From positions 124,001 through 188,000 of the forward strand of contig NZ_SRLH01000008.1 of assembly GCF_004745595.1 (NCBI RefSeq): a stretch of DNA of 64,000 nucleotides, read 5' to 3'. Shown here one piece after another: positions 25,330 through 26,058 of this stretch. Both the position numbers and the translations under genes were made by a program. The notes beneath the pieces are model-generated. The model was given only the letters and a program-made list of their open reading frames with translations. It was not told where the DNA came from and searched no databases. Positions within the stretch are counted from its first letter, which is position 1. Each line of letters begins with the position of its first letter. The DNA is from Flavobacterium humi (GTDB lineage Bacteria > Bacteroidota > Bacteroidia > Flavobacteriales > Flavobacteriaceae).

Positions 25330-25605
25330 ATGGCATTAAACATTAAACCACTTGCAGACCGTGTTCTGGTGGAGCCTGTTGCAGCAGAAACACAAACGGC
25401 TTCAGGGATTTTTATTCCGGATACAGCAAAAGAAAAACCACAAAAAGGCAAAGTGGTTGCTGTAGGCAACGGCAAAAAAGACGAACCTCTTACCGTAAAA
25501 GTTGGAGATACTGTCCTTTATGGGAAATACGCCGGATCCGATTTAAAATTCGAAGGCAAGGATTACCTGATCATGCGCGAAGAAGATATCCTGGCAATAA
25601 TTTAA
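25330..25605 (+). CDS. groS: Co-chaperonin GroES (Cpn10)
   Basis: 91 residues, normal for GroES. It starts [18 protein letters not shown], has the mobile loop region around [19 protein letters not shown] and ends in [13 protein letters not shown]. It caps the GroEL ring in ATP-driven folding. No CIRCE element or clear TAnnTTTG box is visible in the 88 bases after the secG terminator. A foreign-looking gene separates it from groL. Confidence 0.97.
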
Positions 25606-25645
25606 AAAGCAATATGCTTTATGCCATAAGCTATATGCCTACCGC
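25604..25645. repeat. Left heptamer repeat block (six units ending in GC)
   Basis: Six consecutive 7-base units, each ending in GC: AAAAAGC, AATATGC, TTTATGC, CATAAGC, TATATGC, CTACCGC. The block begins in the groS stop codon and ends 39 bases before the four-helix-bundle gene. Confidence 0.7.
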
Positions 25646-25684
25646 TATAAAGTATTAAGACTCGTTTTCTAAAAATCTAAAATA

Positions 25685-26034
25685 ATGAGAGATTTTAAAA
25701 AGTACGAGATTTGGCAAATGAGCCATGATTTTACTTTAGAAATTTATAAAATCACTTCTCAATATCCAAAAGAAGAGATTTATGGTCTGATTAGTCAAAT
25801 CCGAAGGGCCTCTTCCTCTATTCCAACAAATATTAGTGAGGGATGTGGTAGAAATAGCGATAACGAATTTAATCAATTCCTGAACATAGCGTTAGGATCA
25901 GCAAATGAAACAGAATATCTAGGGACTTACAATATATAGATAGAATGATTGCTAAAGATTTTTTAGACAAAATCAATATTATAAAAAGTAAAATTTACAG
26001 TTTAAAACAAAAATTAATTTCACCAACAGCTTAA
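25685..26034 (+). pseudogene. Four-helix-bundle protein (23S rRNA intervening-sequence protein family), frameshifted
   Basis: The first 84 codons (MRDFKKYEIWQMSHDFTLEI..., QIRRASSSIPTNISEGCGR, FLNIALGSANETEYL) clearly match the IVP/S23 four-helix-bundle family, which also includes the Avd accessory protein of diversity-generating retroelements. The frame then stops at 25939. A different frame continues with a plausible last helix (DRMIAKDFLDKINIIK..., KQKLISPTA) to a stop at 26032-26034. Removing one TA from the TATATA run near 25932-25937 would join them. The family is normally about 115-120 residues. The gene sits between groS and groL and is bordered on both sides by heptamer repeats, which suggests insertion. 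Its AT-rich composition differs from both neighbours. Confidence 0.8.
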
Positions 26035-26058
26035 AGCCTAAAGCTTAAAGCCTAAAGC
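26024..26058. repeat. Right heptamer repeat block
   Basis: Four perfect tandem units YTAAAGC (TTAAAGC, CTAAAGC, TTAAAGC, CTAAAGC at 26031-26058), preceded in phase by CAACAGC. The stop codon of the four-helix-bundle frame lies in the first perfect unit, and the groL ATG follows eight bases after the last. Confidence 0.9.

Follow-up and report, generated by a model that had tools for sequence, protein, structure and literature searches.

The groS–groL gene pair of Flavobacterium humi is split by a gene of the PF05635 family (23S rRNA intervening sequence protein, or four-helix bundle) that lies between two inverted arrays of 7-base units. The same layout of gene plus repeats recurs in many unrelated bacteria, pointing to a widespread small mobile element without a known transposase, and we put the chances about even that the insert is a copy of such an element, working as a REP/RAYT-like two-part system without a recognised transposase. 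The copy between groS and groL is itself decayed and vertically inherited, belonging to one inherited subfamily, and does not represent a recent jump. The window, as we use the term, is the whole 64-kb stretch of DNA that was analysed; the features of the insert and its neighbours, given in window positions, are as follows.

25330..25605, + strand: groS (Cpn10; PF00166, E = 1e-34), the upstream neighbour of the element
25604..25645, + strand: left (5') arm of six GC-phased 7-base units, starting within the groS stop codon
25650..25662, + strand: AAGTATTAAGACT, a word also present in gene-less groS–groL gaps of relatives (for example, L006)
25685..25939, + strand: PF05635 (23S rRNA IVP / four helix bundle) ORF of 84 aa, truncated by a frameshift; matches PF05635 and TIGR02436
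25918..26034, + strand: PF05635 gene, C-terminal half, read in a different frame (SRDLQYIDRM...KLISPTA, followed by the stop)
26024..26058, + strand: right (3') arm of YTAAAGC units, in inverted orientation to the left arm and ending 8 nt 5' of the groL start
26067..27695, + strand: groL (Cpn60; PF00118, E = 2.6e-79), the downstream neighbour of the element

The ORF scores 110 bits against PF05635 (curated cut-off 33.8; profile positions 1–75 of 106), which is its only Pfam match, and is also hit by TIGR02436, 'four helix bundle protein'. Together with the two located arrays, this confirms the claim of a first-pass annotation that groS and groL, here 461 bp apart, are separated by such a gene between two period-7 arrays. 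The annotation had also held that the shared 7-base period and GC phase exceed chance, and they do: a pattern of five GCs, one every 7 bases, matches three times in the 64-kb window where shuffles lead one to expect 0.01 matches, and all three matches fall in the two arrays (25609–25645 and 26029–26058). The left arm has a period-7 score of 10 and scores of 1–3 at other periods, and the period-7 scores of the window flanks were equalled by 16 of 2,000 shuffles on the left and 2 of 2,000 on the right.

Several properties of the insert had been overlooked. The two arrays are built from one kind of unit and run in opposite orientations (GCTTTAT... compared with the reverse complement of ...TAAAGC); this unit, as described below, is private to the element. 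Between the left array and the gene lie 39 nt that include AAGTATTAAGACT. Finally, the gene is frameshifted, with 13 bp absent in an alignment with the intact relatives L199 and L200; it is not open over its full length, and the stop of the shifted frame that holds its C-terminal half (26032–26034) lies within the right array. As the gene is broken, at most the arms still act in the window.

No transposase was seen inside the unit, as had been reported before: the PF05635 ORF is the only listed plus-strand ORF of at least 50 aa between groS and groL. Nor did we find a match to PF01797 (Y1 transposase) in this genome, an Rfam match above the gathering score near the insert or any match in a comparison with PHROGs. 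The annotation had likewise seen no reverse transcriptase beside this Avd-like gene, and the two PF00078 matches of the genome are indeed on contig C10, the window being on C13. Those two reverse-transcriptase matches (L402 and L403) are about 1 kb apart and are possibly a defence pair. Elsewhere in the window, positions 53934–54204 hold a 126-bp tandem repeat (2.1 copies) with sub-periods of 21, 42 and 63 bp, which is perhaps coding.

Genes of this family are common, being present in 146 of 150 genomes of the genus, 157 of 198 genomes of the phylum and 62 of 99 from a different phylum. We assembled 135 PF05635 elements (33 from the genus, 27 from the phylum and 75 obtained by scanning several phyla in GTDB), which are the best-scoring family members and not a random draw; five loci with an ORF shorter than 90 aa (L089, L096, L105, L108 and L149) and one duplicate were left out. 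Controls were 328 genes from 20 stretches of 20 kb plus the window, and arrays were called when the period-7/8 score reached at least 9 in both 150-nt flanks. The annotation had proposed looking for heptamers on both sides of PF05635 genes, and such period-7/8 arrays flanked 71 of the 135 elements compared with 6 of 328 controls, with 64 elements missing the two-flank threshold and four of the six positive controls coming from a single stretch, L173, in which operon gaps carry gene-less arrays. Periods of 5/6 occurred in both flanks of 2 elements and 1 control, and periods of 10/11 in none of either. In a further phylum, after two loci at contig edges (L290 and L299) had been left out, period-7/8 arrays were present on both sides of 18 of 27 elements, and neither periods 5/6 nor periods 10/11 were found in any of the 27.

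The two flanks of an element also resemble each other, and they do so in inverted orientation. Inverted similarity of at least 14 was found between an element's own flanks in 93 of 135 cases, compared with 93 of 1,080 mismatched flank pairs and 16 of 328 controls; direct similarity of at least 14 was seen in 21 elements and 19 controls. Among 72 elements with arms, in which the median number of units per arm was 4.6 and 4.7, the arms were direct instead of inverted in 8. Unit similarity within an element averaged 0.663 in inverted and 0.458 in direct comparison, and 0.482 between elements (n = 100). The unit sequence is particular to each element and matched on its two sides, so the earlier notion of a unit that always ends in GC does not hold. 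Both arms have one period in 86 of 162 elements (the 135 plus the 27 of the further phylum); among these 86, G exceeds C in the left arm of 69, C exceeds G in the right arm of 77 and AG occurs within the left unit of 60. As a separate observation, one locus (L063; genome G147, C1:75743–76599) holds two tandem PF05635 genes with equal scores, with long direct GAACATC arrays on both sides of one of them.

Placement relative to neighbouring genes was recorded for the same elements. Of the 135, 115 lie in sense between two co-directional genes, 3 are antisense and 17 are placed otherwise, and a co-oriented gene is close on both sides of 119 elements compared with 153 of 328 control genes. The left arm begins a median of 2 nt past a stop codon (87 measurable elements), and the right arm stops a median of 5 nt ahead of the next start (88 measurable elements). 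We also examined 10 of 36 plasmid records, with 9 annotated PF05635 copies, of which 8 have period-7 scores of at least 9 on both sides; the right array of L237 is weak, and the arrays of L233 are direct. The sense rule is weaker on cyanobacterial plasmids, with 3 of the 9 annotated plasmid copies, all three cyanobacterial, being antisense to both neighbours. On two cyanobacterial plasmids the copies (L233 and L238) stand between cas6 and cas4 and have different units (GCTAAAA and ACAGGTG). For two Flavobacterium columnare genomes, table 5 of PMC5524665 lists a four helix bundle protein as a phage element, between guanylate kinase and nicotinate-nucleotide adenylyltransferase; judged by its place, this gene may be an element of the same kind.

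The sense orientation of 115 of 135 elements would also suit an RNA element of the kind found as intervening sequences (IVSs) in 23S rRNA. The arms would then be kept for pairing in the transcript, RNase III would excise the stem and leave the neighbouring messages functional, and the arrays would have nothing to do with movement. A precedent is the Coxiella 23S IVS, which the sections of PMC4990558 available to us describe as a selfish element of 428 nt with a decaying S23p ORF, of the PF05635 family, enclosed in a loop by complementary ends that form a 28-bp stem cut by RNase III. One PF05635 copy among the plasmid matches, L242 on an Azospirillum plasmid, lies inside a 23S rRNA gene (RF02541, 1,492 bits over the whole locus) and carries inverted heptamer arms: the arrays have period-7 scores of 13 and 13, whereas no other period between 5 and 12 scores above 4. 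Their similarity is high in inverted (26) and not in direct (9) comparison, and the left array overlaps the ORF start. The L242 arms are a link between window-type elements and 23S IVSs. Because 23S IVSs share the protein family and one such copy has such arms, the suggestion that the insert is an element of its own kind stands only in part.

In the window, the arms pair far better than expected, with an arm–arm duplex of −21.9 kcal/mol compared with −11.8 ± 2.6 kcal/mol for shuffles, none of 1,000 of which was as low. Complementary ends around an ORF, as in an IVS, are therefore present, whereas the location is not within a 23S rRNA gene but between groS and groL. Across elements, however, unit-by-unit pairing is barely above that of shuffled units (mean 18.2 versus 17.4; 5 of 72 elements at P < 0.05, median P = 0.69), and mismatches on the transcript strand show no excess of G–U over A–C (46 versus 61). 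With both the in-register pairing and the G–U tests negative, selection for an RNA stem was rejected as the main cause of the arms. A period of 7 or 8 bases would moreover be superfluous for a stem, and the 463-nt RNA from the window, taken whole, folds only slightly better than shuffles (z = −1.6). On balance we regard the RNA reading as unlikely. That the unit and its period are kept, and not RNA pairing, suits a protein that reads the units.

Arrays also occur without a gene. We searched gaps of 20–600 bp not adjoining a PF05635-like ORF in 36 genomes, leaving out gaps beside a short ORF with an NIxEG-like word (one such gap was in G154, which has no PF05635 matches). Within the genus, gene-less arrays were found in 0 of 190 gaps of three genomes without PF05635 compared with 66 of 663 gaps of 19 genomes with it; outside the genus, where arrays are rare either way, the counts were 0 of 165 (three genomes without) and 2 of 182 (11 genomes with, some having 10–16 copies). 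All genomes together gave 0 of 355 gaps without PF05635 and 68 of 845 with it. Counted by genome, arrays appeared in none of the three genus genomes without the gene compared with 14 of 19 with it (hand count; one-sided P of about 0.04), a test that has few independent genomes and in which genome size may be a confounder. PF05635 copy number correlated with array density in the genus (rho = 0.49, P = 0.02) and not significantly over all 36 genomes (rho = 0.26, P = 0.13); control periods showed no correlation with copy number. The window has no gene-less arrays in 35 gaps, and G022, with three PF05635 copies, has none in 52. By gap type, the arrays lie in 55 of 813 co-directional gaps and in 13 of 387 elsewhere. 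As arrays are rare outside the genus with or without the gene, the link in trans rests on one genus; the most testable new claim is that, in this genus, gene-less arrays would depend on a PF05635 gene. In stretch L173 (13286–17082), several successive gaps of one operon, which we take to be the trp genes, each carry a heptamer array of their own; some of these arrays form gene-less inverted pairs.

These counts bear on the view that polymerase slippage makes intergenic heptamers and that PF05635 genes, unrelated to these repeats, insert within or close to them by chance. Heptamers are over-represented in many bacteria, a slippage model is cited in the text seen of PMC4692102 and PMC4679880, and array length is variable; against this, one unit is common to both sides of an element in inverted form, the 190 gaps of genus genomes lacking PF05635 hold no arrays, and periods 5/6 and 10/11 show no such association with the gene. 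We consider slippage and chance improbable.

For movement of the unit as a whole, the cleanest case is a pair of copies in one genome, G346. The L255 and L258 proteins are 87% identical. At the DNA level, a single stretch of 411 bp is alike (80%), beginning 29 nt 5' of the gene and ending 16 nt 3' of it; it takes in the left array, the gene and the beginning of the right array, and outside it nothing in the two loci matches. Together with the flank association and the existence of both occupied and gene-less groS–groL gaps, this pair upholds the annotation's view that repeat, gene and repeat form a real unit. The unit of L255 and L258, the clean same-genome pair, is, by eye, 6 bases long, which counts against the scheme. 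Genome G345 has 25 PF05635 matches, many of them broken, and longer stretches are common to several of its copies. Several of its loci L259, L261, L263, L265 and L267 have common octamer arms and an extra hairpin 5' of the left arm. In KSB1, Nitrospirae, Desulfobacteraceae and two Bacteroidota genomes, a AGGCACAA-type octamer is common to elements at unrelated sites, with a protein identity of 62–70% and a unit similarity of 0.78–0.88 in the 8 of their 10 pairs that were listed. Among pairs at 62% identity or more, however, 349 of 401 occupy the same site, indicating that inheritance is commoner than movement.

Unit length follows the protein over part of this range. Mapped on the full tree, the 106 labelled rows show 6 changes of period (shuffles 32, minimum 24); in a full tree of 138 rows there are 7, compared with a mean of 37.4 and a minimum of 31 in shuffles. 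A period-8 clade of 40 rows spans four phyla; the 7-base period on which the annotation had built thus holds in the window but not in this large protein subfamily. Pairs with unrelated flanks have the same period in 29 of 34 cases at 62% identity or more and in 247 of 323 at 55–62%, the pairs not being independent; below 55% identity, the counts of 384 of 887 and 1,702 of 3,751 are not above chance (random 0.53). The period was also tried as a deep marker of the protein and rejected, the signal being lost in a set thinned to less than 60% identity (7 changes, shuffles 7.7). Since thinning erases the signal, unit length stays coupled to the gene over moderate distances only.

At the groS site itself, a PF05635 gene stands directly behind groS in at least 13 of the 144 genus genomes that have groS, as judged by comparing groS places with the listed protein matches. 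The groS-linked copies are at least 74% identical to the query protein and the listed matches elsewhere at most 63%, suggesting that the copy arrived once or a few times and was then inherited. In all ten groS-linked copies tested, the strongest period is 7. Comparison of the groS–groL gap in relatives, as the annotation had advised, revealed both occupied and gene-less gaps: by hand count over 67 different genus genomes, 12 gaps hold a PF05635 gene (412–614 bp), 8 of these having been chosen because the gene was known there, and 55 do not (11–132 bp). L019, a locus without groL, was left out of the count, and L193 and L194 come from the same genomes as L023 and L014. By eye, the gene-less gaps of L220 and L223 contain a TAAAGC array with an inner hairpin, and they look as if a PF05635 gene was lost there. 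In both, the array is flanked by the inverted words CAGTAG and CTACTG. That the gene is a cellular member of the groE operon, for instance a chaperonin helper with the repeats as its control sites, is very improbable, for although it stands exactly at groS in those genomes and intact copies persist at groS–groL in relatives (L199 and L200, for example), it is absent from that gap in most relatives read, the copy in the window is broken, and many unrelated genes have this gene with its arms beside them. The mobile-unit idea of the annotation is thus supported for the family and not for a recent jump at groS–groL, where the copy is broken and belongs to one inherited subfamily; its observation is confirmed, and its interpretation is partly supported.

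The two-part mobile system that we favour would work as follows. The element would consist of a PF05635 gene between inverted, inward-facing arrays whose units of 7 or 8 bases often have AG at their core, and would sit in the gap between co-directional genes, presumably co-transcribed with them. The protein may be a pentamer, as in solved relatives: the PDB entries 2gsc and 2rld each contain five chains, and the title of the Xcc0516 paper, as given in the reference list of PMC10053308, speaks of five four-helix bundles. Such a protein would recognise the arrays with about one protomer per unit, at 4–5 units per arm, hold the two ends of the element together and spread arm–gene–arm copies; in trans, it could also spread gene-less arm pairs or single arms. 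The arms might in addition pair in the transcript, as they do in 23S IVSs, in which RNase III cuts the stem. The scheme starts from what was computed, namely arms, inversion, matched units, placement, one clean copy pair and the absence of gene-less arrays from the sampled genus genomes without the gene. Binding of the units by the protein, with one protomer per unit, its role in driving movement and the activity that would cut and copy the element DNA are our inferences.

A broader claim, which we rate somewhat short of even, is that this would be a class of mobile elements without a known recombinase in many bacterial phyla, with a pentameric four-helix-bundle protein and inverted 7/8-mer arrays as the whole machine. 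The intervening sequences of 23S rRNA, intergenic heptamers (GGGNATC, TAACTGA and perhaps the heptanucleotide repeats of cyanobacteria) and the gene-less hairpins of operon gaps would all derive from it. The small PF05635 genes are very common and have no assigned role, and intergenic heptamers have been described repeatedly without an agreed cause. If the two form one system, both puzzles could be tested with one protein and one pair of arms, the origin of 23S intervening sequences would be answered and many operon-gap hairpins could be read as the remains of a mobile element.

Heptamer repeats themselves have already been published; a tie of heptamer arrays to PF05635/S23 genes was not found in the literature searched (open-licence papers, no preprints and few subscription journals). 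In the portion of PMC4692102 available, GGGNATC heptamers of Xanthomonas and Nostoc lie between aligned ORFs, in sense after stops and antisense before starts, with a preference for four units. Two Xanthomonas genomes have 70 and 75 inverted pairs and Nostoc has few, and the repeats are explained there as G-quadruplex repeats. Those heptamers and the PF05635 arms have the same placement rules and inverted pairs, so far as that text describes them, and the term 'four helix' was not found in its main text. According to Rehm et al. (PMC4692102), most of the Xanthomonas heptamers lie in corresponding gaps of two species, flanked by the same genes, and their surroundings are stable; inherited arms account for this better than active movement does. 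The PF05635 relative in 2gsc is named XCC0516, a protein from Xanthomonas campestris according to the part of PMC10053308 seen. TAACTGA heptamers, reported from Beggiatoaceae, cyanobacteria and Bacteroidetes, mostly lie just 5' of start codons in one genome, with a reversed set past a stop codon in another, and are read as possible translational control sites (available sections of PMC4679880). In standing beside start codons and being reversed after a stop, as far as this account goes, they are like PF05635 arms; neither S23 nor 'intervening sequence' was found in the main text of that paper.

Among known systems, the insert resembles the Coxiella 23S IVS in the family of its ORF, S23p being of the PF05635 family going by the Pfam name, in the complementary ends that enclose this ORF and in the decay of the ORF. 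It differs in lying between protein genes of an operon, and periodic arms are not mentioned for the IVS in the sections of PMC4990558 available. The relation to Avd of diversity-generating retroelements that the annotation had drawn is in print, Avd being described as homologous by sequence and structure in the part of PMC10053308 seen. Unlike in such a retroelement, the reverse-transcriptase matches of this genome are on another contig than the window. REP and REPIN sequences are short intergenic palindromes without a gene, and rarer copies bear a gene that is presumed to mobilise them; its product, RAYT, is a Y1 (HUH) transposase. The present elements differ from REP/RAYT in that this genome has no PF01797 match and in that their arms are tandem 7- or 8-mers of variable sequence. 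What they have in common with REP/REPIN and RAYT is the pairing of gene-less intergenic elements with gene-bearing copies.
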